This document shows positions 29,761 to 52,934 of a stretch of DNA of 52,972 nucleotides, piece after piece (the stretch's first letter is position 1; each line of letters begins with the position of its first letter). The notes below the pieces were generated by a model, which saw only the letters and a program-made list of their open reading frames with translations, did not search any database and had not been told where the DNA came from. Location: positions 1-52,972 of IMG/VR virus record IMGVR_UViG_3300031688_000024, one strand, 5' to 3'. This DNA comes from a virus. A program made the position numbers and the translations under genes.

Positions 29761-29772
29761 GCAGTAAATTAG

Positions 29773-30105: not shown

Positions 30106-30867
30106 ATGAAACACATTACTAAACTATTACTGGTAGTATTATTATTTTTAACGTCTTGTCAGGAAGACGGAACATGGTTAAACGAGTCAATGTCCGAGGA
30201 GGATTACGACCCTAACCCGAGTACTAGTCGAATCATATCCCATTTTAATGAGATGATACATCATTCCGAAATCGACTTTGATGACATGAATCAAATACCG
30301 ATGGTTATGAAATACATAGATACCGTTAAAGTATATGTACAGGGGAGTGGAGTAAAGGATAGACACCGTAACATAGTTAATAACGTAATTAACGACTTTA
30401 ATGTTCACTCTGAAGGGTCAGAATTCTACGCAATTATAGTGTCGGACTCATTAATCGCAAATAATTACGTCTTTTTTGGGGACCCTCGAGATTGGGTGGA
30501 CCTATGGAGTGCCTACCCGGATAGTATCACTGATACTGAAATATTTAAAAGTACTAATGGGGGTTTGAGTGAGACAGTTTTCAATGGGGAGGAAGAAATC
30601 CAATTCTCAAGATGGTTTGTCAATACCAATAACACTTACACCGATAAGGAATATTGGGTTTCATTACATGAATTCGGTCACTCCATTGGGTTTGGTTTTC
30701 ACACCACAACACCATCAACCATAATGGCGGATGGGTACCTATCCTATTTTAACGATTTTTTACACCCATTAGATAAGTCAGTTTTGAAACTATTATATTC
30801 TGATGAACTACCTCCTGGGACTACGAAATCCGAGACATCTATAATACTACCGACATTACTTAATTGA
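30106..30867 (+). CDS. Lipoprotein with metzincin-type zinc protease motif
   Basis: The N-terminus is a lipoprotein signal (KLLLVVLLFLTSC, lipidated Cys18). The following residues QED resemble the acidic export signal that takes Flavobacterium lipoproteins to the cell surface. HEFGHSIGFGFH at 188-199 is the full metzincin zinc motif HExxHxxGxxH, and Met207 in STIMADG fits the Met-turn. It therefore looks like a secreted or surface protease made by the infected cell. The substrate is unknown. It has its own host-like promoter and is the only gene of its transcript. Confidence 0.85.
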   Translation: MKHITKLLLVVLLFLTSCQEDGTWLNESMSEEDYDPNPSTSRIISHFNEMIHHSEIDFDDMNQIPMVMKYIDTVKVYVQGSGVKDRHRNIVNNVINDFNVHSEGSEFYAIIVSDSLIANNYVFFGDPRDWVDLWSAYPDSITDTEIFKSTNGGLSETVFNGEEEIQFSRWFVNTNNTYTDKEYWVSLHEFGHSIGFGFHTTTPSTIMADGYLSYFNDFLHPLDKSVLKLLYSDELPPGTTKSETSIILPTLLN

Positions 30868-30913
30868 CATTCAACCGATAGTTTACTATCATTACAATAC
30901 GTAAGACAAATAA

Positions 30914-30939
30914 ACGTCTAACTGCGTCAAATCAGACGT
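30914..30939 (+). other. Hairpin in 3' region of metzincin transcript
   Basis: ACGTCT (30914-30919) pairs with AGACGT (30934-30939). The 120 bases between the metzincin stop and the terminator contain no gene; a second hairpin GATAG/CTATC lies near 30878. Their purpose is unknown. Confidence 0.4.
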
Positions 30940-30989
30940 CCCAGAGGATTCTCAACTCACTAAACAGGAGATGGTGGAGCACGATAAAT

Positions 30990-31010
30990 AACCCCATTTT
31001 GGGGTTTTTT
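30990..31010 (+). terminator. Terminator after metzincin gene
   Basis: AACCCC, an ATTTT loop, GGGGTT and a T run. Confidence 0.8.
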
Positions 31011-31041
31011 ATTACTTATTAAACAGTTAAAAATAATACTT

Positions 31042-31275
31042 ATGAAGACAGTTAAGAATAGTAATGGAGACGTTAAGAGGGTTGACGAAGGCACTGCAAC
31101 CAACTTAGTTAATAGTGGTGTGTGGTCCTTTTGTCCTAAATCGGAATATAGGGGTAATAGAAAGAAAACAACACCAAATACAAAATCTGAGGACGACGTG
31201 GATTTACAGTCTAGAGGATTGTCGGACAAAAAATTAAGGAAAGAAAGAAGACTCGCGAAGTCAAATAAGAAATAG
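31042..31275 (+). CDS. Small basic protein, hypothetical
   Basis: The 77-residue product begins MKTVKNSNGDVKRVDEG and contains SGVWSFCPKSEYRG, then a Lys/Arg-rich disordered tail. I do not recognise a characterised family. Its stop is 1 base before the TTG start of the next gene, indicating coupling. Confidence 0.65.
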   Translation: MKTVKNSNGDVKRVDEGTATNLVNSGVWSFCPKSEYRGNRKKTTPNTKSEDDVDLQSRGLSDKKLRKERRLAKSNKK

Positions 31276-31276
31276 G

Positions 31277-32635
31277 TTGAAACGAGTAAAACTAATACTT
31301 TTTAGTTCGGATAGGTTATCATATAACCCACTTTCCGAAAAGATGTTAGAATTCACAGAGTTCTACATCGATAGGATTAGTCAGTCCACTGAATTTCACT
31401 GTGAGACGATTAAAGTCAATACAATTGACGCTGCACTGGAGCATCATATTGATGGGTTTGACTATGCTATATTCATGGCGTCAGGTAACCGAATTTACAA
31501 TTCCAAAGATTTACTTCCTGAATTAATAACACCATTTATCGAAAACCCTAAACTAACGTTAATGGGGCATATATTAGATAGGAAAGAAAAGTGGTACGAA
31601 TTAAATCATCAGTTTTTCACTATTGATGTTAACAATTGGGTGAAATGTGGTCGACCATCATATAATAAAATAGATGTAGGTAAACTAATAGAGGTGAAAA
31701 GAAGTGATGAGAATTTTCACGACGATTATACTCCATTATGGGTTGAAAAAGGAGATACGTTTCGTAATTACGAGAATACCGAGCAGGGGGCTAACTTAAT
31801 AAACCAAATACTTACTAATGATTATGATGTCCAAATATATGGAGGAAACATCAAGTCTAAAAAGGTATATCTATACCCTGAATATAACTCCAAGATATTC
31901 CACCAACTAATTTTAGATAAAGGGGTAACTGAGGACATCGATTATAATAAAAAGACTCACTTAAAGTCCCTATTACACGGTAACTCGACATGGGTTTTCA
32001 ATACGGAAGAAATGGAACTAACTAAGGACCATAAAGGTGAGTCGTTCAATGTGATATCACTACCATCCGCCGGGTTTAAGTTTTTAGACGTGGTTAAGGG
32101 TAATTACCTTTCGGAAGGGGGTAAAATTATTTTTTACGACTTTAATGTTAAAAGTGTTAGGTGGATTAAATATATTTTAGAGAGTAACTATGATACTATT
32201 CATGACTTAGTTCGTAATTTTGACGATAAGTGGGGTCTAATCGGTAAGCGAGGTGAGGGACTTTTAGATGATAATGATGGAATGACAGACTCAATGAGGG
32301 AAAATGTTAATGAGGTTTATGATTATTATGGTGGTATCGATAACTTTAAAGAATACTTAAAAACATTTAAAGGGTACCATATTGAGTACCACGACATTAA
32401 TATTATTGATAACCCTGAGTCTATTTATGGTCTTATGGGTGGGGAGAATAACCTAATAAATGTCTCCAACATATACTCAACAGACTACTCAAATATGTTT
32501 TACGGAAAATCTAAAATGACTAAAATTTTCAATAAATCAGTAACTTACATACAATCACCAACACTGATAGTTGGTAGGGGTGTTGATGTATCATACTCCG
32601 AGACTTTTTACGATAAAACCGAAAAAAATATATAA
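31277..32635 (+). CDS. Hypothetical 452-residue enzyme-like protein
   Basis: A TTG start directly after the preceding stop gives MKRVKLILFSS. The N-terminal 110 residues alternate strands and helices (LILFSSDRLSYN, FDYAIFMASGNRIYN) like a glycosyltransferase or nucleotide-binding fold. The middle contains AGFKFLDVVKGNYLSEGGKI followed by IFYDFN, which resembles a Rossmann-type strand-turn. I cannot assign a family. A sugar or nucleotide transferase is possible but unproven. Confidence 0.6.
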   Translation: MKRVKLILFSSDRLSYNPLSEKMLEFTEFYIDRISQSTEFHCETIKVNTIDAALEHHIDGFDYAIFMASGNRIYNSKDLLPELITPFIENPKLTLMGHILDRKEKWYELNHQFFTIDVNNWVKCGRPSYNKIDVGKLIEVKRSDENFHDDYTPLWVEKGDTFRNYENTEQGANLINQILTNDYDVQIYGGNIKSKKVYLYPEYNSKIFHQLILDKGVTEDIDYNKKTHLKSLLHGNSTWVFNTEEMELTKDHKGESFNVISLPSAGFKFLDVVKGNYLSEGGKIIFYDFNVKSVRWIKYILESNYDTIHDLVRNFDDKWGLIGKRGEGLLDDNDGMTDSMRENVNEVYDYYGGIDNFKEYLKTFKGYHIEYHDINIIDNPESIYGLMGGENNLINVSNIYSTDYSNMFYGKSKMTKIFNKSVTYIQSPTLIVGRGVDVSYSETFYDKTEKNI

Positions 32636-32645
32636 TCAGAGAGGG

Positions 32646-32676
32646 TTGTTAGTTTAACTTTATTAACTTATCTTTG
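32646..32676 (+). promoter_or_regulatory. Promoter of tRNA-Leu
   Basis: TTG at 32646-32648, 20 bases, TATCTTTG at 32669-32676, 21 bases before tRNA-Leu. Confidence 0.85.
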
Positions 32677-32697
32677 TGATGTTAAAAAGTTATAATC

Positions 32698-32779
32698 ACT
32701 TGGGTGGTGGAATTGGTAGACACGTCAGACTTAAAATCTGATTCCTTTTGGAGTGTGGGTTCGATTCCCATCCCGAGTA
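32698..32779 (+). tRNA. tRNA-Leu(TAA)
   Basis: Acceptor ACTTGGG/CCCGAGT, anticodon loop CTTAAAA, class II variable arm. No CCA encoded; trailer CAAAA. Confidence 0.95.
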
Positions 32780-32783
32780 CAAA

Positions 32784-32880
32784 ATAAGAGAAGTAGTAAA
32801 GCTGATTAAATTGAGAAACATAGGTAAAGGTTAACCTCTCATTCACGCAGTAACCTCGAAAGACCCGAACCTTCTCTTAT
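32784..32880 (+). ncRNA. Hairpin-closed spacer RNA
   Basis: ATAAGAGAAG (32784-32793) pairs perfectly with CTTCTCTTAT (32871-32880), enclosing 77 bases with no tRNA features. The box CCTCGAAAGA occurs inside it and again at about 32942. Similar closed spacers follow other tRNAs here. Confidence 0.45.
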
Positions 32881-32998
32881 GTTATTTAAAACCACTCAGG
32901 TTCAGATATAGAAATATATTGAGGATAATTCAGTCACCCGCACCTCGAAAGAGAAAAAACTTTAGACTGACAAGTGAGGAATGTGGGAGCCTTACAAT

Positions 32999-33072
<74 letters not shown>

Positions 33073-33093
33073 CAAATATTAATAAATTGAATT

Positions 33094-33324
33094 ATGGTGG
33101 AATATATTGGGTGGGCTGCGACTGTCGCTATTGTCCTTTCGTTCTTAATGAACGACTTACTTAAATTAAGAGTGACTAGTTTAATCGGGGCTCTATTGTG
33201 GTTATGGTACGGCATTGTAACTAACATACCGTCGATTCTTTTTCTAAATATTATTATCGTAATTATACAAATTTATAAAATATACCAACTAAAAAGGGGT
33301 AAAACTAAAGAGAAACATGATTAA
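33094..33324 (+). CDS. PQ-loop/YgjV-like small membrane protein
   Basis: The 76-residue product has three hydrophobic helices: EYIGWAATVAIVLSFLM, SLIGALLWLWYGIVT and SILFLNIIIVIIQIYKIY, with NDLLKLRVTSL between. This layout is that of small YgjV-type or SemiSWEET-like proteins. Substrate unknown. It follows tRNA-Arg by 21 bases and overlaps the next gene by 8 bases. Confidence 0.7.
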   Translation: MVEYIGWAATVAIVLSFLMNDLLKLRVTSLIGALLWLWYGIVTNIPSILFLNIIIVIIQIYKIYQLKRGKTKEKHD

Positions 33325-33616
33325 AGACCATAAAGAGATACCCGAATTCCAAATAAAGGGGGATATAAGTGAGATAAATGAATCGTTTGACTTCCATAGT
33401 CGTAATGTCGAGTTAATCGAACAGAACCTTAATGGGGGTCCTAAGGAAACAATTCTTTGTTACTTCATAACTGAAGACGGTCGGAGATTGGTTGCGGAAT
33501 TACCCGAGGAGTCATATCTAACGTCAATAAATGAGAGTCTACGATATTTCGTTGGAAAAGAAGAGTATGAGATGTGTGGTAAAATCAATAAAGTCAAAGA
33601 AAAACTATTAAACTAA
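33317..33616 (+). CDS. Small protein with UVR-like C-terminus
   Basis: The 99-residue product ends with KEEYEMCGKINKVKEKLL, close to the UVR helical motif used for protein contacts in UvrB, ClpC and McsA. The N-terminal part is strand-rich and unassigned. A link with the phage ClpC-like protein, which also has a UVR segment, is conceivable but only a guess. Confidence 0.55.
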   Translation: MIKDHKEIPEFQIKGDISEINESFDFHSRNVELIEQNLNGGPKETILCYFITEDGRRLVAELPEESYLTSINESLRYFVGKEEYEMCGKINKVKEKLLN

Positions 33617-33625
33617 TGGTATATT

Positions 33626-33775
33626 ATGGTGAAACGGATTTCATTTTTAAAATATAAGGTAGGACATCAATTCTACATTGTGCCGACAATACAAATCACA
33701 TACGATAAAAGACTAAACGGGAAATACTCAATAGATTTGTTATGGGGTCGATGGGGTATATCAATGGCATGGTAA
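33626..33775 (+). CDS. Small hypothetical protein, 49 residues
   Basis: An ATG 10 bases after the previous stop opens 49 codons: MVKRISFLKYKVGHQFYIVP, ending LLWGRWGISMAW. It is basic and aromatic at the end, with no family recognised. Position and uninterrupted frame support it. Confidence 0.55.
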   Translation: MVKRISFLKYKVGHQFYIVPTIQITYDKRLNGKYSIDLLWGRWGISMAW

Positions 33776-33779
33776 TTGA

Positions 33780-33787
33780 TATTTATT
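33780..33787 (+). promoter_or_regulatory. Late-type motif
   Basis: GATATTTATTAAC on the coding strand lies about 60 bases before the lipoprotein gene at 33847. Confidence 0.35.
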
Positions 33788-33846
33788 AACTATTAGTTGA
33801 GTATCACTTGACGGATAAATAATAACAGACTTAAATTAATCATATT

Positions 33847-34422
33847 ATGAAAAAAATATTATTAGTATTAATCACATTTACTTTAACTTCGTGTGGGACA
33901 TACCAAACATTACGAACCCAAAACAATACGCCATTAAGGATTAACAATTTTAACACAGATAACACATATCAAAATCTAAACTGGTCCCCATATTATTATT
34001 ATGGGACTAATTTTTACGATATGAGTCATCATTTTAATCATGGGGTATGGTGGAACTATAATAGACGAGGTTTTGGTTTTACATATAATTGGAATCACAA
34101 TAGGTGGAGTTCATCGTATTGGCGTGGTGGATGGTATAACACCAATAACCAATATAGGTGGTATGATAACCGTAGGGGTCGAAGAACGAGTAGTACTCGT
34201 CAAAATGTCCGACATATAGTAACGAAACCAATTCGTTTGGTTAGTACTAATACCGTCAGACCCATCCCTATACGGAACGGTAATTCGATAATTAAACGAG
34301 TAAGACGTAACAACGTCAGAACCAACAAAGTCAGGAGAGTAACCCCAATTAGGAGGAATACCCATACTAAATCCCCACGTAGAACCATACAATCAAATAA
34401 GAAAAGAAGAACTAATCAATAA
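33847..34422 (+). CDS. Aromatic/Arg-rich lipoprotein
   Basis: A clear lipoprotein signal (KKILLVLITFTLTSC, Cys16) precedes about 90 residues extremely rich in Tyr, Trp, Asn and Arg, and a C-terminal half dominated by Arg, Asn and Thr. No catalytic motif. Such composition is found in envelope lipoproteins of Bacteroidota, so it may change the cell surface of the infected host. A strong terminator follows at once. Confidence 0.7.
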   Translation: MKKILLVLITFTLTSCGTYQTLRTQNNTPLRINNFNTDNTYQNLNWSPYYYYGTNFYDMSHHFNHGVWWNYNRRGFGFTYNWNHNRWSSSYWRGGWYNTNNQYRWYDNRRGRRTSSTRQNVRHIVTKPIRLVSTNTVRPIPIRNGNSIIKRVRRNNVRTNKVRRVTPIRRNTHTKSPRRTIQSNKKRRTNQ

Positions 34423-34430
34423 TTTAAAAA

Positions 34431-34457
34431 AAACTCTCACCATGGTGAGAGTTTTTT
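34431..34457 (+). terminator. Terminator after lipoprotein gene
   Basis: AAACTCTCAC, loop CATG, GTGAGAGTTT then TTT. Confidence 0.9.
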
Positions 34458-34467
34458 ATTTATATGT

Positions 34468-34498
34468 TTGGTGGTTGTATCTATTTAACTTATCTTTG
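34468..34498 (+). promoter_or_regulatory. Promoter of 34528 operon
   Basis: TTG at 34468-34470, 20 bases, TATCTTTG at 34491-34498. Confidence 0.85.
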
Positions 34499-34527
34499 TA
34501 GTGTTAAATAAATAAAGACATAAAGAT

Positions 34528-34971
34528 ATGGGTACGAACTACAGAAGAATTCCGAAGATAAGTGATATGGTCAGTAAAAGTCAAAAACTTACACTGAGAC
34601 TACAGGAGATGAACCTATATGACGCGTCCATGACGTATAATGGATTTAACTTCATCAAAACCGATGGGTTGAATTCTAACTCACCATGGGATGAATTTAC
34701 CGATGGGATGTCAGTACATATTGGTAAACGTAGTGGTGGTTGGAAATTCTCATGGAACTTCCATAATGGAAAGTTCTATACAAATAAGAAAGAATTGTTC
34801 GACTTCATTAGAAGTGGTCGAATCGTAAATGAATACGGAGAACAAATACCGACGGAGGAGTTCATTCATATGGCAATCGGATGGTGTGTTGACGGATTGG
34901 ACGGAATCGAAGAGGGGTACGAGAAAGAAGTGGACGGATTAAGTGTCTCAACATCAACAGACTTTTCATAA
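34528..34971 (+). CDS. MGTNY-type conserved phage protein
   Basis: The 147-residue product starts MGTNYRRIP and contains SVHIGKRSGGWKFSWNFH, a combination seen in many small phage and plasmid proteins of unknown function. In other members a CxxC-like metal site is often present between the two parts; here it is absent. It is first in a three-gene unit. Confidence 0.65.
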   Translation: MGTNYRRIPKISDMVSKSQKLTLRLQEMNLYDASMTYNGFNFIKTDGLNSNSPWDEFTDGMSVHIGKRSGGWKFSWNFHNGKFYTNKKELFDFIRSGRIVNEYGEQIPTEEFIHMAIGWCVDGLDGIEEGYEKEVDGLSVSTSTDFS

Positions 34972-34972
34972 T

Positions 34973-35209
34973 ATGAGTAATAAAAATAGGTATGACCATT
35001 ACGTAGGTATGGTCGAGAGGTGTGAGAAAATCATTAATAGTTGTATTACGGAAAAACAGTTAGAATCCGCAGATAAGTATTTGGAACTATTTAAGAGACA
35101 GATAAAGAACGCCGAAACGAATAGTATGGAGGGTAAGTTGTTTTACGATAAAGTATCTTCACAACAAAAAGACTTGAGGATTAAAATAAAAACGTTTATT
35201 ATTACATAA
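34973..35209 (+). CDS. Small helical protein
   Basis: The ATG at 34973, 1 base after the upstream stop, is preferred over an in-frame start 30 bases earlier. The 78 residues are charged and helical (coiled-coil-like). The stop overlaps the next ATG (TAATG). Function unknown. Confidence 0.6.
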   Translation: MSNKNRYDHYVGMVERCEKIINSCITEKQLESADKYLELFKRQIKNAETNSMEGKLFYDKVSSQQKDLRIKIKTFIIT

Positions 35210-35457
35210 TGGATAACAGTAGTAATACATTTGACAATCAAAACCAATATGAGCATAATACTACGTTGGATGTTAATTTTAGATACATGATACCTAAGGG
35301 TACTAAAACTATTGAGATTATCGCTGAGATTGAAAACATTGCCGGTGTAGACATATTTTATACAAAATCAGGTAGGTCATTCGCTGAACATCAATTGGAC
35401 GGTGTCGAAGTGACATATAATTACATAATGAAAACATGGCCCGAAGTCGATGCATAG
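35209..35457 (+). CDS. Small hypothetical protein
   Basis: The 82-residue, acidic, strand-rich product starts MDNSSNTFDNQNQYEHN. No motif recognised. It is coupled to the upstream gene through TAATG. Confidence 0.6.
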   Translation: MDNSSNTFDNQNQYEHNTTLDVNFRYMIPKGTKTIEIIAEIENIAGVDIFYTKSGRSFAEHQLDGVEVTYNYIMKTWPEVDA

Positions 35458-35610
35458 ATTAGGGAACGAAGCCCACGGATTACGGGTTTATTTAATATTA
35501 AACCTCAACCACTTTCGAGTTTGTTGAATTGTTAAATAGATTGTCGCGGATGTCGGTCGAATCGTTGGTCGGATTAGTTGGTAACTCTAAGGTGTTTAAA
35601 AGTTACAAAT
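35458..35610 (+). other. Noncoding spacer before tRNA-Val-like gene
   Basis: No ORF. Short helices are possible (ACGGATTACGGGT region, GTCGGTCGAATCG region). It may be leader RNA processed from the tRNA transcript. Confidence 0.3.
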
Positions 35611-35684
35611 ACCCCTATAGCTCAGTTGGTTAGAGCATCTCAATAACATTGAGAATGACGTAAGTTCGATTCTTACTGGTGGTT
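35611..35684 (+). tRNA. tRNA-Val(AAC), atypical
   Basis: A cloverleaf can be drawn: acceptor ACCCCTA/TGGTGGT with one C-U mismatch and G-U pairs, D arm GCTCAGTTGGTTAGAGC, anticodon stem TCTCA/TGAGA, loop ATAACAT (anticodon AAC), T arm GTAAG-TTCGATT-CTTAC. A34 in a bacterial Val tRNA is unusual. Confidence 0.7.
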
Positions 35685-35728
35685 CTAAAAAATAAATGAA
35701 AAGGGTTAGACTATCTCATTTATTTGAG

Positions 35729-35736
35729 TATCTTTG
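35729..35736 (+). promoter_or_regulatory. TATCTTTG promoter
   Basis: A -7 type element without a good -33 TTG, upstream of the small gene at 35843. Confidence 0.55.
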
Positions 35737-35842
35737 TAGAGTCAAAGACGACAAAACAAAAATAAATTAAAAAAAAGGGTACTAAACATATTTTTTATAT
35801 ATGTATATACAGTATCCGACGTAACGGGATAATAATATAATT

Positions 35843-35992
35843 ATGAAAACAAATACTAACATACAACTCTTATCGAATCAGATGTTCCATTTATGGACTG
35901 CGATTACTGTCTCGGTATGTGCGTTTGGCTTTGGACAGGACAGTTATAATGTTAGAGAACCGAAACGATTAATTGGATATTTAAAATGGTGA
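35843..35992 (+). CDS. Small protein, 49 residues, one hydrophobic segment
   Basis: An ATG opens 49 codons: MKTNTNIQLLSNQMFHLW, then TAITVSVCAFGFG (short hydrophobic stretch), ending RLIGYLKW. It lies between a TATCTTTG promoter and a terminator, which supports a real mini-gene. Function unknown. Confidence 0.55.
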   Translation: MKTNTNIQLLSNQMFHLWTAITVSVCAFGFGQDSYNVREPKRLIGYLKW

Positions 35993-36026
35993 TATAGACT
36001 AAACACATATATACTCAGTATTAGAT

Positions 36027-36058
36027 AATCCAATTTCCAAAAGAAGTTGGATTTTTTT
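36027..36058 (+). terminator. Terminator after small gene 35843
   Basis: AATCCAATTT pairs with AAGTTGGATT (one G-U) around a 7-nt loop, then a T run. Confidence 0.85.
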
Positions 36059-36105
36059 GTACCCAATAATTCGGATTCTAACGAATTAAAATAATAGAAA
36101 CAAAT

Positions 36106-36178
36106 GGTGTTCGTAGTTTAATGGCGAGAATGGTGGATTGTGATTCCACAGATGGGAGTTCGATTCTCCTCTTACACC
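36106..36178 (+). tRNA. tRNA-His(GTG)
   Basis: An extra 5' G pairs with C73 as expected for His. Anticodon loop TTGTGAT. The acceptor has two mismatches in the middle (T-T, C-T). Confidence 0.85.
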
Positions 36179-36209
36179 CTAAATGGTTGTTTTTATACCA
36201 TATTAAATA

Positions 36210-36224
36210 GTTCATTGACATATT
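36210..36224 (+). promoter_or_regulatory. boxA-like antitermination site
   Basis: GTTCATTGACATATT resembles bacterial boxA (E. coli GCTCTTTAACA) and the leader box of Bacteroidota rRNA operons. It lies 14 bases before tRNA-Ser; an identical copy is at 39218. Confidence 0.55.
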
Positions 36225-36237
36225 GGATAAAATTAAA

Positions 36238-36324
36238 GGAAGGTTGACAGAGTCTGGCTTATTGTACTAGTCTTGAAAACTAGAGGGTGTAAAAACTCCA
36301 TGGGTTCGAATCCCATACCTTCCT
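36238..36324 (+). tRNA. tRNA-Ser(TGA), second copy
   Basis: Acceptor GGAAGGT/ACCTTCC, loop CTTGAAA, long variable arm. Different in sequence from the copy at 29676. Confidence 0.93.
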
Positions 36325-36329
36325 CTACA

Positions 36330-36403
36330 TTAACTTGTGGTATAACGGTGATTACATTTGACTTTGACTCAAATAATGGAGGTTCGATTCCTCCCAAGTT
36401 AAC
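36330..36403 (+). tRNA. tRNA-Gln(TTG)
   Basis: Acceptor TTAACTT/AAGTTAA, anticodon loop CTTTGAC. Confidence 0.93.
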
Positions 36404-36410
36404 AATAATA

Positions 36411-36482
36411 CGGGTAGTATTCTCGGGGTGAGAAGCTCGCCTTGGACGCGAGAGGTGGTAGGTTCGACTCCTATCTACCCGA
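36411..36482 (+). tRNA. tRNA-Pro(TGG)
   Basis: Acceptor CGGGTAG/CTACCCG, anticodon loop CTTGGAC. Confidence 0.95.
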
Positions 36483-36490
36483 CTAAAGTA

Positions 36491-36562
36491 GCCCTTGTAG
36501 CAAACCGGCGTAGGCAATCGACTTTTAATCGATGGGGTCAGGTTCGACTCCTGACAGGGGCA
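36491..36562 (+). tRNA. tRNA-Lys(TTT)
   Basis: Acceptor GCCCTTG/CAGGGGC, anticodon loop CTTTTAA. Confidence 0.95.
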
Positions 36563-36605
36563 CAAATTGGAATGGTTATGCCAATTAAAGTATATGTAAC
36601 CACCT

Positions 36606-36676
36606 GTTTCGTTGGCGTAATGGTAGCGTATTTCTTTTACATGGAAATGGCAGTGGTTCGATTCCACTACGAAATA
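36606..36676 (+). tRNA. tRNA-Val(TAC)
   Basis: Acceptor GTTTCGT/ACGAAAT, loop TTTACAT, anticodon TAC. The anticodon stem has one T-G pair. Confidence 0.88.
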
Positions 36677-36776
36677 CAAAAATAGTTGGGTGAAAGTGAT
36701 TCATTACTACAATAGTGATAACAACACACGATATTCTATGGGTATTAGGAATTGTAGTTCCAATCGATATAGTTTT

Positions 36777-36848
36777 TGGCGTTAGTGGAATGGTGACCAA
36801 GGCCGGCGATAAGCCGGCAGGAGCAAGTTCGATTCTTGTACGTTGACA
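36777..36848 (+). tRNA. tRNA with aberrant anticodon loop
   Basis: Acceptor TTGGCGT/ACGTTGA (three G-U pairs), D arm and T arm GCAAG-TTCGATT-CTTGT are good. The anticodon stem GCCGG/CCGGC encloses CGATAAG, which lacks the universal T33 and can close to a 5-nt loop. It reads ATA by position, or GAT (Ile) if one base was lost. Confidence 0.7.
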
Positions 36849-36856
36849 AAATAAAT

Positions 36857-36939
36857 GGGATATGAAAGTCGTTCGGATACGGCAGCGAGACTGTAAATCT
36901 CGTCCTTCGGGGAGTGGTTCGAGTCCACCATAACCCACA
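36857..36939 (+). tRNA. tRNA-Tyr(GTA)
   Basis: Anticodon loop CTGTAAA and long variable arm. Acceptor TGGGATA/TAACCCA with one A-A mismatch. Confidence 0.9.
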
Positions 36940-37016
36940 ATTACATAAAATTTGTGTTTAGGATATGTATTTAGATTATATATATTAATATATGACTTAA
37001 CATATAACGTAAATCA

Positions 37017-37493
37017 ATGAACACAGTAATTAACAAGTCAAAATTATCAATTTCAATACTCTCAAATTTAATGGCATTTCACATACCGGTTATATTATGG
37101 TATTCGAGTGGGGGTTTTGAAGAATCGATAAGTAGTTACCATTTAACAGATGCGAAATGGGCATTATTTATAACATTAATAATTACCTCTTTTGGGTTTT
37201 TTATTGGGAAAGTTGAGTATAGACTCTCAGGGGTTCTTTTAATTCTAATTGCGATTTTTAATATTGAATATGAGTTAATTCATAATATAACTGCCGGTTT
37301 GTTTTTTGCGTATACTGCGGTTTTAATGTTCATGGATAAGAGGTTTTGGTTTTTATCGATACCGATATTCATATCGTCATTAACGATACCGTTTATGTCG
37401 TTATACCCCTTTGAGATGATTTCATTATTATGTATTATATCGTTTAATGTTCTATATATTTTAAGATATGTTAGAATTATTAACATAAGATAA
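37017..37493 (+). CDS. Polytopic membrane protein, hypothetical
   Basis: The 158-residue product has about five membrane helices (about 14-30, 46-66, 70-84, 88-106, 112-130, 133-152). No conserved motif recognised. It is embedded between tRNA-Tyr and tRNA-Phe. No clear TAnnTTTG is seen, so it may be read from the tRNA transcript. Confidence 0.65.
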   Translation: MNTVINKSKLSISILSNLMAFHIPVILWYSSGGFEESISSYHLTDAKWALFITLIITSFGFFIGKVEYRLSGVLLILIAIFNIEYELIHNITAGLFFAYTAVLMFMDKRFWFLSIPIFISSLTIPFMSLYPFEMISLLCIISFNVLYILRYVRIINIR

Positions 37494-37511
37494 TACTATT
37501 CAAATTTTAAC

Positions 37512-37584
37512 GGTACTGTAGCTCAAATGGTAGAGCACTTGGTTGAAGCCCAAGGTGTAGTTGGTTCGATACCAATCAGTACCA
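37512..37584 (+). tRNA. tRNA-Phe(GAA)
   Basis: Acceptor GGTACTG/CAGTACC, anticodon loop TTGAAGC. Confidence 0.94.
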
Positions 37585-37592
37585 CAATTAAA

Positions 37593-37673
37593 TTACGATG
37601 CAGGTGCATTAACTGTCTCATGAGCAGTATCGGTAGATATACCTAATGGAGGTTCGAGTCCTCTAATCGTAAC
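37593..37673 (+). tRNA. tRNA-like gene, CAT anticodon, reduced D arm, long variable arm
   Basis: Acceptor TTACGAT/ATCGTAA is perfect, anticodon stem ACTGT/GCAGT with loop CTCATGA gives CAT, and the T arm GGAGG-TTCGAGT-CCTCT is good. Only about 12 bases separate acceptor and anticodon arms, so the D arm is almost missing. A 4-bp variable arm GGTA/TACC is present, as in class II tRNAs, and one extra A precedes the 3' acceptor strand. Confidence 0.65.
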
Positions 37674-37676
37674 TAT

Positions 37677-37748
37677 GGACCTGTAGCTCAGAGGAAGAGC
37701 ATTCGCCTGTTAAGTGAAATGTCGAGATTTCGAAATTCTCCGGGTCCT
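37677..37748 (+). tRNA. tRNA-Asn(GTT)
   Basis: Acceptor GGACCTG/CGGGTCC, anticodon loop CTGTTAA. T stem has one mismatch. Confidence 0.92.
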
Positions 37749-37752
37749 CAAA

Positions 37753-37814
37753 TTGATTACAAAGAATGAATGATACGAGCCTTGAAAGTTCGAAAGGAGT
37801 CAGGTTGTAATCAA
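37753..37814 (+). ncRNA. Hairpin-closed spacer
   Basis: TTGATTACAA (37753-37762) pairs perfectly with TTGTAATCAA (37805-37814) around 42 bases; an inner CCTT/AAGG helix is possible. No tRNA fold fits. Confidence 0.45.
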
Positions 37815-37817
37815 CTT

Positions 37818-37890
37818 CGGAGTGTAGCTCAATCGGTAGAGCATTGTCCTGATACGACAAAGGTAGTTGGTTCGATACCAACCATTCCGA
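37818..37890 (+). tRNA. tRNA-Ile(GAT)
   Basis: Acceptor CGGAGTG/CATTCCG, anticodon loop CTGATAC. Confidence 0.94.
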
Positions 37891-37904
37891 CTTTACTTAC
37901 AAAA

Positions 37905-37988
37905 GGAAGATAAACTATGATGGTGACTAGGATATCCTGCTAAGATAATCGTACTTAACGGTATTCGGTTCGATTCCGATTTCTTCCT
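37905..37988 (+). tRNA. tRNA-Ser(GCT)
   Basis: Acceptor GGAAGAT/TTCTTCC (last pair mismatched), anticodon loop CTGCTAA, long variable arm. Confidence 0.88.
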
Positions 37989-37994
37989 CAAAAT

Positions 37995-38066
37995 GCCAAT
38001 ATAGCTCAGAGGTAGAGCACCTCTTTCATACGGAGTAGGTCGATGGTTCAATTCCGTCTATTGGTA
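37995..38066 (+). tRNA. tRNA-Met(CAT)
   Basis: Acceptor GCCAATA/TATTGGT, loop TTCATAC. Elongator Met or Ile2 (lysidine) cannot be separated by eye. Confidence 0.88.
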
Positions 38067-38070
38067 CAAA

Positions 38071-38123
38071 AGGGGGGTGAGACAATGGTGGTCAACGTAG
38101 GTTCGAATCCTTCCATTCCCCTG
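38071..38123 (+). pseudogene. Truncated tRNA lacking anticodon arm
   Basis: AGGGGGG pairs with the 3' strand ending CCCCT and a T arm with loop TTCGAAT is present, but only about 20 bases stand where D and anticodon arms should be. Total 53 bases. Confidence 0.55.
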
Positions 38124-38219
38124 AATTAACGCCCAAAGGGTGATTGAATTGGTCAGAGATGAAATTCTTGCAAAGACGTTACCTAAAGATGTCCTGTCAA
38201 CCTACGGGGTTGGCTATAT
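38124..38219 (+). other. Noncoding spacer between tRNAs
   Basis: Helices CCC/GGG, GAC/GTC and CAACC/GGTTG can form. A TTGCAA stretch recalls an Ala anticodon loop, but no T arm exists, so no tRNA is called. Confidence 0.3.
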
Positions 38220-38299
38220 GCCCGTGTGATGAAATTGGTAAACATATTCGGTTTAAGCCCGAAGGCTACGGCTTGTAGGTTCGAATCCTATCACGGGTA
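38220..38299 (+). tRNA. tRNA-Leu(TAA), second copy
   Basis: Acceptor GCCCGTG/CACGGGT, loop TTTAAGC, class II variable arm. Confidence 0.92.
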
Positions 38300-38304
38300 C
38301 AATT

Positions 38305-38376
38305 ACCTTTATAGTTTAATTGGAAGAACTTATCGCTACGAACGATAGAACGGGGGTTCGACTCCCTCTAAAGGTA
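38305..38376 (+). tRNA. tRNA-Arg(ACG)
   Basis: Acceptor ACCTTTA/TAAAGGT, loop CTACGAA; A34 is normally changed to inosine. Confidence 0.93.
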
Positions 38377-38382
38377 CAAATT

Positions 38383-38454
38383 ACCTCCATAGTTTAATTG
38401 GAAGAATAAAACGCTTCTAACGTTTTGGTACTGGTTCGAGTCCAGTTGGGGGTT
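38383..38454 (+). tRNA. tRNA-Arg(TCT), second copy
   Basis: Acceptor ACCTCCA/TGGGGGT, loop CTTCTAA. Confidence 0.93.
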
Positions 38455-38459
38455 CAAAA

Positions 38460-38528
38460 GCGTCATAGGTTAAGGTAACCAAACGGATTCCAAACTCGTA
38501 GGACAAAGTTCGATTCTTTGATGACGCG
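38460..38528 (+). tRNA. tRNA-Trp(CCA)
   Basis: Acceptor GCGTCAT/ATGACGC, loop TTCCAAA. Short (69 nt). Confidence 0.88.
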
Positions 38529-38563
38529 CAAATTAAGAATATAAATCATTAACAATTTAAATC

Positions 38564-39073
38564 ATGAAAAATCGTTATGCTAAAACACTTGTGGTGGATT
38601 CAAGTTACACGGCACGTAGTATTATAACCACTGAAAGAGCATTTGTAATATCCTATAAGGGTAATGCAGATATATTAGTAGAGTATCCTGAAACGTTTGG
38701 ACTTGTTAATCCTAAGTTAGTCATTAACAAACCGTCAATAATTCGGGTTTACACTTACGTAAGGAAGGAATTTGATAAAGTACCATTAACACGTGAAAAC
38801 ATATTCAAACGTGATGGATACGAATGTGTGTATTGTGGTAATGATAATAGAAAGACATTAACATTGGACCATGTTGTCCCACAATCTAAAGGGGGACCTA
38901 ACAAATGGGATAACTTGGTCACGGCATGTAAACGATGTAATAATGAAAAGGCGGATTTAACGTTAAAGGAATATGGGAAACCTATTCCCAAACCACAGAG
39001 ACCACATTATTTAATGTTATTAAAACAGACAACATATATACCAGATGAGTGGAAACCATACTTAGGTATGTAA
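38564..39073 (+). CDS. HNH endonuclease
   Basis: The 169-residue product has a zinc-ribbon HNH domain at about 85-140: CVYCGN, LDHVVPQSKGG (the HNH His), WDNLVTACKRCNNEKADL. The N-terminal 80 residues are strand-rich. Free-standing HNH nucleases in phages often act as homing enzymes or in DNA processing. The gene is inside the tRNA array and its stop is one base from the 5' end of tRNA-Cys. Confidence 0.9.
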   Translation: MKNRYAKTLVVDSSYTARSIITTERAFVISYKGNADILVEYPETFGLVNPKLVINKPSIIRVYTYVRKEFDKVPLTRENIFKRDGYECVYCGNDNRKTLTLDHVVPQSKGGPNKWDNLVTACKRCNNEKADLTLKEYGKPIPKPQRPHYLMLLKQTTYIPDEWKPYLGM

Positions 39074-39074
39074 T

Positions 39075-39144
39075 GAGTGAGTTGTTCTTGGAGAACGGTT
39101 GGTCTGCAAAATCAACAGAGTGAGTTCGATTCTCACCTTACTCT
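39075..39144 (+). tRNA. tRNA-Cys(GCA)
   Basis: Acceptor GAGTGAG/CTTACTC, loop CTGCAAA. Starts 1 base after the HNH stop. Confidence 0.92.
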
Positions 39145-39160
39145 CAAATTAAGTTAATGA

Positions 39161-39194
39161 GGTAGATTAGGATACGTGAAATAAAATATCTACC
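39161..39194 (+). other. Spacer hairpin after tRNA-Cys
   Basis: GGTAGAT (39161-39167) pairs with ATCTACC (39188-39194). Confidence 0.4.
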
Positions 39195-39217
39195 TTTACC
39201 AAGTAGAAAGTACTACT

Positions 39218-39232
39218 GTTCATTGACATATT
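39218..39232 (+). promoter_or_regulatory. boxA-like antitermination site
   Basis: GTTCATTGACATATT, identical to 36210-36224, 13 bases before tRNA-Leu. Confidence 0.55.
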
Positions 39233-39244
39233 AAAAGATAAATT

Positions 39245-39318
39245 ACCCTTATGGCGGAATTGGTATACGCGGCCGTCTTAGACACGGTGTATTGTAGGTT
39301 CGAGTCCTACTAAGGGTA
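39245..39318 (+). tRNA. tRNA-Leu(TAG)
   Basis: Acceptor ACCCTTA/TAAGGGT, loop CTTAGAC. Confidence 0.92.
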
Positions 39319-39327
39319 CATAATATA

Positions 39328-39381
39328 AGGTTAGACGTTCGTTGGAGAACTTAAAAGAGATACAAAACCTCATTCTAACTT
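39328..39381 (+). other. Spacer hairpin after tRNA-Leu
   Basis: AGGTTAGA pairs with TCTAACTT (one G-U) around 38 bases; inner GTTC/GAAC helix. Confidence 0.4.
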
Positions 39382-39385
39382 AACC

Positions 39386-39457
39386 GCCTCCAAAGCATAA
39401 ATGGTAATGTACTCGGTTTGTACCCGAAAGAACGGAGTTCGATTCTTCGTGGAGGCT
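39386..39457 (+). tRNA. tRNA-Thr(TGT), second copy
   Basis: Acceptor GCCTCCA/TGGAGGC, loop TTTGTAC; one mismatch in the anticodon stem. Confidence 0.88.
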
Positions 39458-39655
39458 CAAATTAAATGACGACTATGGTGTAACCCCATGGTATATGAAT
39501 CTCAGATAACTAGGTGAATTTCGAAACAGAGACTAGGGCGAGTAATATTTGATATAATCCATTCAACCATGTGCACATAAAGGGAAAATGTAGAAAGTCG
39601 AATTACGAGTGAAATCGGCATGATGTATAAATGGATACAAAAAATTTAATTTAAT
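39458..39655 (+). other. Noncoding spacer with tRNA-like fragments
   Basis: About 200 bases without ORF or complete cloverleaf. The start (ACTATGGTGTAACC) recalls the D arm of the Gln tRNA at 40963, suggesting a decayed tRNA gene. Confidence 0.35.
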
Positions 39656-39727
39656 GCGAATGTAGCATAGTGGTTAATGTTCTAGGCTTCCACCCTTGAG
39701 ACGAGAGTTCGATTCTCTCCATTCGCT
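39656..39727 (+). tRNA. tRNA-Gly(TCC)
   Basis: Acceptor GCGAATG/CATTCGC, loop CTTCCAC; one mismatch in the anticodon stem. Confidence 0.9.
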
Positions 39728-39859
39728 CCGCCGTTGATTGATTCCTGGTAGTACATCAACAGTCATTAGGGTATTCGGGAAAATCCCATGAATGATACGT
39801 CATTAACGCTCAGTTTAATGGTAGGTACGTTGTTAACATCATGTTAAAACCTACAACCT
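39728..39859 (+). other. Noncoding spacer
   Basis: Contains GTTGAT/ATCAAC and GGG/CCC hairpins and a GTTAAC-rich stretch near 39830. No cloverleaf with a T loop. Confidence 0.3.
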
Positions 39860-39931
39860 GTTCCCATCGTCTAACGGTCAGGACCTATGGTTTTCATCCA
39901 TAAAATCGGAGTTCGATTCTCCGTGGGAATA
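39860..39931 (+). tRNA. tRNA-Glu(TTC)
   Basis: Acceptor GTTCCCA/TGGGAAT, loop TTTTCAT. Confidence 0.93.
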
Positions 39932-39937
39932 CAATTT

Positions 39938-40010
39938 GGCCCTGTAGCTAAACTGGCTTAGCACCTCCCTTGCACGGAGAAGTATGTGGGTTCGAGTCCC
40001 ATCAGGCCCA
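39938..40010 (+). tRNA. tRNA-Ala(TGC) without G3-U70
   Basis: Anticodon loop CTTGCAC gives TGC. Acceptor GGCCCTG/CAGGCCC places C3 against C70 instead of the G-U pair that AlaRS reads. Confidence 0.88.
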
Positions 40011-40083
40011 CAATGATAAAACACCCACCTTTGGTTGGTTTTTGTTAAGGTTTTTAAGGTTGAACCACTAATCAACCTTAAAT

Positions 40084-40155
40084 AGCTCCATAGTTAAACG
40101 GCTATAATGTCGCCCTGTCACGGCGAAGTTCGGAGTTCGATTCTCCGTGGAGCTG
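40084..40155 (+). tRNA. tRNA-Asp(GTC)
   Basis: Acceptor AGCTCCA/TGGAGCT, loop CTGTCAC. Confidence 0.94.
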
Positions 40156-40161
40156 CACATC

Positions 40162-40234
40162 GCGAGGGGGAGGTAAGGTATCTCACTGGTCTCATAAGCC
40201 GGAATAGAAGTAGGTTCAATTCCTACCCTACGCT
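40162..40234 (+). tRNA. tRNA-Met(CAT), possibly initiator-like
   Basis: Loop CTCATAA; anticodon stem CTGGT/GCCGG; T loop TTCAATT. Acceptor GCGAGGG/CCTACGC has one A-A mismatch. Initiator identity is not proven. Confidence 0.8.
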
Positions 40235-40344
40235 ACTAAGACCACTGTGGGTCTCTAATTACACAGAGAACTTTTGGGGTAAAAGTCATGTAGGTAATAA
40301 AATTTATACTATCTTAGCATAAATATTTTTACAAAACCCCACAC

Positions 40345-40416
40345 GGTCCGTTAACTCAGAGGTAGAGTAGTTCGCTCATAACGAAAAGGTCATAGGTTCA
40401 AATCCTGTACGGACCA
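40345..40416 (+). tRNA. tRNA-Met(CAT), third regular copy
   Basis: Acceptor GGTCCGT/ACGGACC, loop CTCATAA. Could be Ile2. Confidence 0.9.
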
Positions 40417-40489
40417 CAGTAATTTTATCCAATATGTGAAGAACCGGCAATACTTGTCAAACTTCCTTAAATTAAAACAAAAATACAAT

Positions 40490-40738
40490 ATGAGTAAAGA
40501 AAACGAAAGTATGAAACTAAAGAGAGGTTTTTGGGCCGGATTATTATCATTTGTGATAGCCAAAGTAGCACATCTATTAATAACATTCTCATTTGGTTTA
40601 TTTATCGGATTGATATCGGGAGGGGAAATAAGTGAGGATATGTGGACATTCATTAGAGCGATTGACCACCCAATTACAGGTCTTATCTTTTTAATATTCG
40701 CGACTAGGTACGTATATAAATTAATTACAGTACGGTAA
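40490..40738 (+). CDS. Small membrane protein
   Basis: The ATG at 40490 is preferred to an upstream GTG at 40436 that lies just past the tRNA. The 82 residues have two to three hydrophobic segments (GFWAGLLSFVIAKVAHLLI, FSFGLFIGLISG, ITGLIFLIFATRYVY). Function unknown. Confidence 0.6.
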   Translation: MSKENESMKLKRGFWAGLLSFVIAKVAHLLITFSFGLFIGLISGGEISEDMWTFIRAIDHPITGLIFLIFATRYVYKLITVR

Positions 40739-40933
40739 ACGTAAAATAAGTAAGGGGTACTTAAACAGACATCCATGGAGTCTATAAATTAAATGGGGGT
40801 AATAGAACGGACATCCTGAATGCCGCTCTCTGAGGAATAAAGACAGGTGATAGAGTCTCCCAGTAATTTGACTTTTTTTAATGTGGTAAGACACTAATGT
40901 GTTTGTTTGAAAGTAAATAAAACCGTTAAAATC
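40739..40933 (+). other. Noncoding region before tRNA-Gln
   Basis: No ORF. Around 40793-40866 the ends TGGGGG and CTCCCA can pair and a loop with CCTGAA occurs, but no T loop exists; probably a decayed tRNA. A T run at 40873 has no strong stem before it. Confidence 0.3.
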
Positions 40934-40941
40934 TAAGTTTG
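40934..40941 (+). promoter_or_regulatory. Possible TAAGTTTG promoter
   Basis: It fits TAnnTTTG and lies 22 bases before tRNA-Gln; the -33 element is not well placed. Confidence 0.4.
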
Positions 40942-40962
40942 GTAAATCTCGCTAAACTATAC

Positions 40963-41035
40963 TGTCCTATGGTGTAACTGGCAACACGTCTCGTTTTGGT
41001 CGAGAAGAGTCGAGGTTCGAGCCCTTGTGGGACAA
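40963..41035 (+). tRNA. tRNA-Gln(TTG), second copy
   Basis: Acceptor TGTCCTA/TGGGACA, loop TTTTGGT. Last tRNA of the array. Confidence 0.9.
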
Positions 41036-41070
41036 CAATAAAATTAATTAAAACAGTTAAAACTAAAAGT

Positions 41071-51438: not shown

Positions 51439-51529
51439 GGGGGTGACTGGCATTGATTGGCAGGATTACTTACACGGGGCACGTAGTCAAACTTCATCTA
51501 TGACTTTAATCTATGATGGACATTTTTTA

Positions 51530-51598
51530 GACGGAAACGTTTATAACGAGATGGCAATGTTCGGATTAGTTTCTGAAACTGCTATCGTTAACGCATAA
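51530..51598 (+). other. tmRNA tag reading frame, 22 residues
   Basis: Eleven bases after PK1 the frame reads D-GNVYNEMAMFGLVSETAIVNA then TAA. Bacteroidota tags are short and end ALAA; this one is long, uncharged at the end and finishes AIVNA. The exact resume codon (GAC or the next GGA) is inferred from spacing in E. coli. Confidence 0.7.
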
Positions 51599-51835
51599 TT
51601 ATTTATGAAGTTAACCGTAACTCACTCTAAGAGTGAGTTACATGGGGTCGGTCAGGACATATACCTTGCAACAGAAGTCCGTTGTTGTGGTGGAAAAACG
51701 ACTAAACCCTAAATTGGGTCGTCCATTGGTTGTTGACTTACGATGGTGAAGAACAGGTCAACGAATTTCGGAGTATTAGAAAATACTGTACTAAACGTGT
51801 AGTCCTTTGTGAGTGGACTGAGCAAGACCCGGGTT

Positions 51836-52061
51836 TAATAGGGGACCCATTTAACAGTGATGTTAAATTAAAAATTGGATGAATTGCTGGAACGCTAAGT
51901 CGGAAACGATAAGCCAATCAGCAGCCAAGCTTAAGATACATCTTAAGAAGGTTCAGAGACTAGTGGAGAGGTAGAGTCTTCTTAATAACCACATTAGCGT
52001 CCGACATCTCGTTTGAGATGATGATATAGTCCGTACAGTGTAGAAATACATTGAGTATATG
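51836..52061 (+). other. Group I intron in the tmRNA T-loop
   Basis: The 226-nt intron has the catalytic core: P element AATTGCTGGAACGC, Q element CAATCAGCAGCCAAGC, R element GTTCAGAGACTAG, S element GATATAGTCC; P3 CGCTAA/TTAGCG, P8 CATCTC/GAGATG, and extra helices between R and P3' closed by GTGG/CCAC, as in subgroup IA. The 5' exon end GGGTT pairs with GACCC inside the intron, leaving the required U-G at the splice site, and the intron ends with G 52061. Joining gives stem CCGGG/CCCGG and T loop TTCGAAA. No endonuclease ORF. Confidence 0.92.
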
Positions 52062-52088
52062 CGAAACCCGGCACCTCCACCATTACGT

Positions 52089-52119
52089 AAACCACCTCTT
52101 AATCGGGGTGGTTTATTTT
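52089..52119 (+). terminator. Terminator of tmRNA
   Basis: AAACCACC/GGTGGTTT with a 10-nt loop and ATTTTT, 7 bases past the tmRNA 3' end. Confidence 0.88.
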
Positions 52120-52199: not shown

Positions 52200-52934
52200 A
52201 TGGCAAAGATATTCAAAGTAGGTGGTTGTATAAGAGATAAGTTTCTTGGAGTAGATTCCAAAGATATTGATTTCACATTCGTATGTGAGAACTCTAAGAC
52301 AATCGAAGAAGGTTGGGCGGAAATGGTTAACTGGATGACTGAAAGAAAATACGAAATATTTTTAGAAACTCCTGACTGTTTTACAATTAGAGCGAAGTTT
52401 CCAAAAGGAGATACTAACGAAGGTTTAGTTGCAGATTTTGTAATGGCAAGAAAGGAAATCGGTTACATTGAAGGAACTAGAAAACCTATCTTAGAATTAG
52501 GAACATTAGAAGATGATTTACTAAGAAGAGATTTCACAGTTAATGCACTCGCAGAAGATATTGAAGGAAATATCATTGATATCTTTGATGGAATTGCTGA
52601 TTTAAAGAAAGGGATATTACGAACACCTATGGATGCCACTCAAACTATGATGGATGACCCACTTAGAATCTTAAGAGCATTGAGATTTACAATCACAAAG
52701 GATTTCACAATGTCTATAGATTTATGGGATGCAATGCAACAACCAAATATCTTACAGAAATTAGAGTTAACTGTGAGTGGTGAAAGAATCAGAGAAGAAA
52801 TCGCAAAGATGTTCCAATTTGATACTGTTAGAAGTTTTAGATTATTAATGGATGTAGATAACGTTATCCCAGGATTTTTAGATTTAATCTTTAAGAATGG
52901 TATGTGGTTAGTTCCAACATTCAAAAAACAATAA
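52200..52934 (+). CDS. tRNA CCA-adding nucleotidyltransferase, short form
   Basis: Class II tRNA nucleotidyltransferase motifs are in order: VGGCIRDKFLG (7-17), DIDF with the metal-binding Asp22/Asp24, RRDFTVNA (109-116), DDPLRILRALRF (152-163), and the neck motif SGERIREEIAKMF. It adds or repairs the 3' CCA of tRNAs. At 244 residues it keeps head and neck but lacks most of the body and tail of bacterial enzymes (about 400 or more). It matches the array of tRNAs without encoded CCA in this window. A poly(A) polymerase cannot be fully excluded. Confidence 0.85.
   Translation: MAKIFKVGGCIRDKFLGVDSKDIDFTFVCENSKTIEEGWAEMVNWMTERKYEIFLETPDCFTIRAKFPKGDTNEGLVADFVMARKEIGYIEGTRKPILELGTLEDDLLRRDFTVNALAEDIEGNIIDIFDGIADLKKGILRTPMDATQTMMDDPLRILRALRFTITKDFTMSIDLWDAMQQPNILQKLELTVSGERIREEIAKMFQFDTVRSFRLLMDVDNVIPGFLDLIFKNGMWLVPTFKKQ

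Follow-up and report, generated by a model that had tools for sequence, protein, structure and literature searches.

A phage tmRNA gene split in its T-loop by a mobile, ORF-less group I intron, and endonuclease genes beside the tmRNA genes of its relatives

The window analysed here is a stretch of viral DNA of 52,972 nt (IMG/VR record IMGVR_UViG_3300031688_000024), and the term always denotes the whole of that stretch. At 51439-52082 on its plus strand, the sequence reads as a complete, one-piece phage tmRNA gene that harbors a group I intron (Table 1). A preliminary description had given these limits, with the intron at 51836-52061, and a check against the sequence found coordinates and splice sites exact to the base. 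The tRNA-like ends comprise a 7-bp acceptor with a G3.U70 pair, a CCA terminus, and a T arm that forms on removal of the intron. Both the PK1 pseudoknot and the P2 closing helix are present, with covariation over 87 family members, and the tag GNVYNEMAMFGLVSETAIVNA terminates in a small hydrophobic C terminus and a stop, its V-x-A or V-A-A type of ending being conserved at the protein level among relatives. Judging by its sequence, the gene encodes a phage tmRNA of the working type, with a mobile group I intron that has no ORF of its own inserted in the T-loop. Upstream, the motif TTCTTTGA is found within 25 nt of the tmRNA in 24 of the 87 family members.

Table 1. Features of the window tmRNA gene and its immediate surroundings (positions are those of the window)
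Feature	Position	Strand	Remarks
boxA-like leader motif GTTCTTTGAAA	51424..51434	+	directly before the mature 5' end; presumed function
tmRNA 5' acceptor strand GGGGGTG	51439..51445	+	pairs with 52072-52078; G3.U70 alanine identity pair
tmRNA 5' exon	51439..51835	+	homologous to L040 and to intron-free tmRNAs matched by RF00023
P2 upper strand GCACGT	51479..51484	+	partner ACGTGT 51795-51800
PK1 pseudoknot	51485..51520	+	covariation across the family
PK1 stem 1	AGTCA 51485-51489 : TGACT 51501-51505	+	
PK1 stem 2	TTCATC 51493-51498 : GATGGA 51515-51520	+	
Tag reading frame GNVYNEMAMFGLVSETAIVNA, then TAA	51533..51598	+	21 aa; aligned tags in relatives
T-stem 5' strand CCGGG	51829..51833	+	partner 52067-52071
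Intron P1	GGGTTT 51831-51836 : GGACCC 51843-51848	+	-1U = T51835, omega G = G52061
T-loop 5' part TT	51834-51835	+	read from sequence
Group I intron, 226 nt	51836..52061	+	RF00028 100.7 bits
tmRNA 3' exon	52062..52082	+	identical intron-free allele in L163, L212
T-loop CGAAA	52062-52066	+	within 3' exon
T-stem 3' strand CCCGG	52067-52071	+	within 3' exon
Acceptor 3' strand CACCTCC	52072-52078	+	within 3' exon
A and CCA end	52079-52082	+	within 3' exon
Probable intrinsic terminator AAACCACCTC-TTAATC-GGGGTGGTTT-ATTTT, 10 bp	52089..52119	+	read from sequence; missed by a simple scan
Poly(A) polymerase/CCA-adding enzyme head domain gene	52200..52934	+	PF01743 E 5e-19

In relatives, the position taken here by the poly(A) polymerase-like gene holds a homing endonuclease gene; no endonuclease homologue adjoins the window tmRNA. 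Among other phages, only L040 has a tmRNA next to a poly(A) polymerase gene, so this neighborhood is not conserved. A search of the window for a freestanding endonuclease that might act on its tmRNA yielded no candidate; the HNH gene at 38564-39073 lies inside a tRNA array (28851-41036, 31 tRNA genes) on what is a fragment of a T4-like (Gp23) phage. Elsewhere in the window (20535-25790), a phage Hsp70 gene (DnaK-like, 615 aa) has as neighbors a peptidase-like gene and one for an AAA+ unfoldase of the ClpB/ClpC type that contains a UVR motif, which are possible partners for tmRNA-tagged proteins.

Standard tools overlook this gene. Neither the Rfam tmRNA models nor ARAGORN match the unspliced window, and ARAGORN makes no call on the spliced copy. 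The Rfam models miss the window because its intron disrupts the match, and they do recognize intron-free relatives. An intron-free version of the window RNA was first seen in L040, reached through a relative of the neighboring gene, and two pattern scans extended the family to more than 110 loci and 87 distinct complete tmRNA genes. Intron-free members match RF00023 with 62-90 bits (L208 89.6, L209 82.5, L212 82.5, L090 80.2, L174 77.7, L098 66.3; L107, L182, L215, and L155 are also matched). Of the two Rfam checks that the preliminary description had proposed, the intron model thus gave a clear match (100.7 bits, above the gathering score of 50), and the tmRNA model failed on the window itself while succeeding on its intron-free siblings. 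ARAGORN calls a tmRNA in 49 of the 87 spliced copies, in many of which it independently places the homologous tag; its tags in relatives, such as GNVYNNMEVAGLLATSNVAVA, stand in the same place as that of the window. In the alignment, most members have tags of 20-22 aa, longer than the usual tmRNA tag length of 10 given in a recent survey (PMC11915505).

The secondary structure covaries across the family. Over the 87 members, PK1 stem 1 is paired in 98% of cells and stem 2 in 93%, compared with 81% and 78% for shuffles, and both partners have changed in four of the five pairs of stem 1 and five of the six pairs of stem 2. P2 is paired to 99.8%, and nine members replace GCACGT:ACGTGT by GCAAGT:ACTTGT, a C-G to A-U exchange. 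Both elements are as the preliminary description had drawn them, although it had left the tag unidentified. The acceptor displays double changes at positions 4-7, and G3.U70 is found in all 87 distinct members, a supportive but not independent count because the tmRNA ends were picked by complementarity. It is the recognition of intron-free homologues by RF00023, together with this covariation, that establishes the tmRNA identity of the window gene. Several alternative readings of the 5' region were discarded. TAGTC (51484-51488) is not a resume signal, because AGTCA:TGACT and NTCATC:GRTGRN covary as PK1; in relatives, stops or shifts appear in its frames. A programmed frameshift at CTA-TGA-C was dropped along with it, and an apparent one-base frameshift between the window and L040 is merely a change in spacer length ahead of the resume codon.

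Could the gene be dead, either a pseudogene or a decoy serving only to titrate SmpB, its intron having lost the ability to splice? The window has no SmpB gene, and its tag and pseudoknot regions are divergent enough to go unrecognized by Rfam and ARAGORN. We nevertheless regard this as very unlikely, given that the acceptor, G3.U70, CCA, PK1, P2, and tag are all retained and covarying and that the intron core and splice sites are intact. Moreover, SmpB is encoded by the phage records L247 (142 kb), L208 (311 kb), and LR756501, all of which have a tmRNA and two of which have a T-loop intron. Two further observations concern the family at large. L088 and L097 share near-identical tmRNA 5' ends and identical introns, but some 100 nt from the central part of the tmRNA are missing in L088. 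GOLLD RNAs lie within a few kilobases of the tmRNA at L098:9798-10203 and L155:5084-5493 (303 and 327 bits, respectively).

The intron possesses the hallmarks of its class. It matches RF00028 with an E value of 5.5e-25, contains the conserved P3-P8 core, P7, and P1, has a T51835.G pair at its 5' splice site, and ends in G52061, so that the -1U and terminal G noted earlier are both in place. Its minimum free energy fold is 4.0 s.d. better than those of shuffled sequences (z -4.0), and it contains no homing ORF, again as first described. The insertion site lies after U55 and splits the T-loop as TT|CGAAA. Excision of 51836-52061 yields CCGGG-TTCGAAA-CCCGG with the 7-nt loop restored, as expected for an intron-form tmRNA of the T-loop type. 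This predicted spliced arm, which the preliminary description had called perfect, stands uninterrupted, letter for letter, in L163, L195, and L212. Because the core is intact and the T arm is exactly restored, the intron very probably self-splices. Splicing would follow the two-step guanosine pathway, with attack after U51835 and subsequent exon ligation at G52061. The unspliced RNA has no T arm, and splicing must therefore come before charging, as had been supposed; intron removal would precede folding of the T arm, RNase P processing, function of the CCA end, and charging with alanine by AlaRS.

The dependence of charging on splicing lends itself to a regulatory reading, in which GTP or the stage of infection would adjust splicing and so set the time at which the phage tmRNA becomes active. 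The preliminary description leaned this way in suggesting that the intron could time ribosome rescue during infection. The distribution of the intron speaks for an optional mobile element instead. L152 and L209 have exons that are 99.2% identical (three differences), yet L152 carries a 225-nt intron and L209 does not. T-loop introns occur in only 10 of the 87 distinct phage tmRNAs, leaving 77 without, and on an exon tree built without the T-arm columns, on which L163 is the sister of the window (SH-aLRT 99), the intron state switches at least eight times. An extra conserved domain or ligand-binding element was not noted in the intron. Since the intron is optional between near-identical genes, a regulatory clock is very unlikely, although splicing must still gate charging.

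Comparison of introns with exons leads to the same picture of an optional, mobile intron. Two subsites are in use: subsite 3, after U55, in two members including the window, and subsite 2, after U54, in the other eight, whose introns are of a second type with a different guide sequence. The introns of the window and L152 are 91% identical, compared with 0.63 for their exons; the corresponding values are 0.94 and 0.55 for L088 and L192, and 0.87 and 0.48 for L088 and L156. With at least eight state changes and introns far more alike than the exons that surround them, the introns move horizontally, and we read them as optional mobile elements that spread between phage tmRNA genes, presumably by DNA recombination.

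The lineage extends beyond this phage family. A Bacteroidia chromosomal tmRNA (L262) bears a subsite-3 intron that is 73% identical to that of the window over 161 nt, and sequence likeness points to the two as kin. It was the one true tmRNA intron recovered by a DNA search of 395 Bacteroidia genomes, which also returned one anticodon-loop tRNA intron; a genome-wide pattern for bacterial position-3 introns gave nine matches, all of them chance. A related intron interrupts the tmRNA-like gene of phage LR756501 (735 kb); the final base of this T-loop intron (L146, ~1190) appears to be A, not G. Group I introns of bacterial tRNAs usually reside in the anticodon loop. At L332:2976-3305, a tRNA-Pro(TGG) gene has its T-loop interrupted at the same subsite by a 227-nt group I intron of the window type (76% identical to the window intron, RF00028 121 bits), and ARAGORN calls the tRNA only once this intron is spliced out. 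An HNH-like ORF lies immediately upstream of the interrupted tRNA.

Several intron carriers have a convergent gene immediately 3' of the tmRNA, and an endonuclease gene adjoins the tmRNA in L152, L247, L185, L192, L234, and L307. In L152, the closest intron carrier to the window, this neighbor is a LAGLIDADG protein (PF14528, PF00961); it is absent in L209, and L262 retains a fragment that resembles its C-terminal part (41 residues, 46% identity, E 1e-5). A second kind, a protein of 172-180 aa found in L088, L097, L185, L192, L234, and L247, matches PHROG endonuclease, HNH, and Endo VII families and has a zinc finger motif at its N terminus. Its structural model gives weak matches, with HNH enzymes among the best and none below E 0.001. 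Downstream sequence of 500 nt or more is available for 76 members, 12 of which have an endonuclease gene 3' of the tmRNA, namely 6 of the 10 intron carriers and 6 of the 66 intron-less members (Fisher p 0.0007, kinship ignored).

These genes and an intact T arm seem to avoid each other. None of the 12 endonuclease carriers has an intact canonical T arm, as opposed to 39 of the 60 intron-less non-carriers; all six intron-less carriers have a changed arm (p 0.003 against the same 39 of 60, kinship ignored). The arm is also altered in 21 of the 60 non-carriers, and T-arm changes have other sources besides the endonuclease. A search by the endonuclease alone recovered 38 close homologues (at least 49% identity), and all 38, which include loci known from the family search, lie 3' of a tmRNA; 17 of these tmRNAs have introns, 21 have rewritten T arms, and none is intact and canonical. 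More distant homologues (at most 46% identity) are located elsewhere. On 14 distinct intron-less endonuclease loci, the exclusion has a p of 5e-6 with kinship ignored; eight tree-independent pairs give about three in its direction and none against (median p 0.25), too few pairs for significance, and the pattern is not phylogeny-proof. Not all nuclease neighbors conform: of the four loci with GIY-YIG-like ones (L198, L206, L214, L239), three have retained a canonical T arm.

By their sequences, the rewritten arms comprise 6-nt loops, GGCRGWG loops, and changed stems. In L175, L230, L231, L237, L300, and L310, the loop reads GGCRGWR in place of TTCRANN, with T54 and U55 lost and the 5-bp stem and 7-nt loop kept. 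In L294, L304, and L324, an intact rewritten T arm and acceptor are followed by a second copy of the T-stem/acceptor 3' end (CCCGTCATCTCCA), which may be left over from an event that replaced the tmRNA 3' end; the copy is also part of a terminator-like hairpin.

We consider it likely that the window holds a phage tmRNA with an ORF-less mobile T-loop intron, very probably self-splicing, that spreads by collaborative homing through endonucleases now seen in relatives, the window copy being an orphan. The endonuclease would most likely target the intact T arm, and either an intron or a rewritten arm would block cutting. Repair would then copy the flanking unit into new phages with the intron riding along. 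The window intron is termed an orphan because it is present without an endonuclease, and for the same reason the homing part of the explanation draws on the relatives; this intron may have outlived its partner or become separated from it. The broader proposition, that T arms are the homing site of the endonuclease families encoded 3' of the tmRNA, with immunity gained through an intron or a rewritten arm, and that the same intron lineage enters tRNA T-loops, is one we favor more cautiously as somewhat probable.

An alternative account would make the intron a neutral orphan, a passenger of ordinary homologous recombination between phages, and the endonuclease genes unrelated neighbors. Such recombination is common in phages, and the introns of the window, L156, and L224 do lack an adjacent endonuclease. 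Unrelated neighbors would hardly account for 38 of 38 close homologues lying 3' of a tmRNA, none with an intact canonical T arm. Moreover, in the crAss-like phage cr128_1, a homologous endonuclease gene lies inside the tmRNA intron itself, in antisense, followed by the 3' exon CGAATCCCTC-ATGCTCC. We therefore judge the passenger account unlikely and retain collaborative homing. The tag of the cr128_1 tmRNA is probably GNTYRAAA. At the crAss-like loci L272 (NC_055885.1 7600-9300) and L274 (NC_055894.1), group I introns and this endonuclease family accompany divergent tmRNA-like genes or tmRNA-like ends. Rfam's RAGATH-20, RAGATH-7-assoc, and RAGATH-9 match immediately upstream of tmRNA-like 3' ends in L273, L274, and L275, and these RAGATH RNAs could belong to phage tmRNAs of divergent sequence.

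The arrangement is of a known kind. Intron-form tmRNAs, which have group I introns in the T-loop with a -1U and a terminal G, have been catalogued in bacteria (Nawrocki, Petrov and Williams 2025, PMC11915505). The preliminary description placed them in a few bacteria; their existence there stands, but the catalogue counts 883 unique cases. The bacterial introns it describes are, like ours, short and mostly ORF-less, with a homing gene in 36 of the 883. They share position 3, which on our reading of its numbering falls after U55 and is reported there only from the class Bacteroidia, and our searches recovered a chromosomal case of this type in L262. The same catalogue lists 79 phage tmRNAs and reports intron positions 2 and 3 solely from bacteria. 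Unlike those bacterial cases, the introns described here are phage-borne, use both subsites within one family, segregate as plus and minus alleles, and have endonuclease genes on the 3' flank. Phages including Melnitz, Bacillus phage G, mycobacteriophages, and Chryseobacterium phage MA9V-3 also carry ssrA, in standard, permuted, or tRNA-like-domain-only form, and none of these is described as intron-containing (PMC9004378, PMC4131195, PMC13120357). The open-access literature contained neither a phage tmRNA intron nor a tmRNA homing endonuclease, with the proviso that the supplementary tables of PMC11915505 may include a phage case. What sets the present variant apart is the phage setting, the two subsites in one family, the plus/minus alleles, the invasion of a tRNA T-loop, and the 3'-flanking endonuclease genes.

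For the proposed mode of spread, the closest parallel is the psbA intron of cyanophage S-PM2 and its endonuclease F-CphI, where an ORF-less group I intron likewise occurs with a free-standing endonuclease gene adjoining the interrupted gene, and where the intron blocks self-cleavage (PMC6083498, PMC3984707). The S-PM2 intron aligns with that of the window (72% over ~160 nt). Collaborative homing is known for this pair, for a T3-like DNA polymerase, and for ICP1 terL (PMC6083498, PMC3984707, PMC10448857). The present system differs in several respects from S-PM2: its target is a non-coding RNA gene, the tmRNA; the endonuclease gene is convergent and encodes an HNH-like protein with an N-terminal zinc finger (LAGLIDADG in L152) that is predicted to cleave; rewritten T arms form a second apparent route to immunity; and a free-standing endonuclease gene adjoins the tmRNA in relatives but not in the window itself.

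Intron-form phage tmRNAs escape standard tools, with the Rfam tmRNA models missing the window and L152 and ARAGORN missing the window. Bacterial T-loop tmRNA introns rarely have a homing gene, and a phage family with plus/minus alleles and endonuclease genes at the side of the tmRNA offers a direct, testable route for their spread and a link from phage to bacterium. If the interpretation is correct, collaborative homing would here act on the gene of a non-coding RNA that serves ribosome rescue, and homing into the T arm would explain the spread of ORF-less tmRNA T-loop introns in phages and bacteria.
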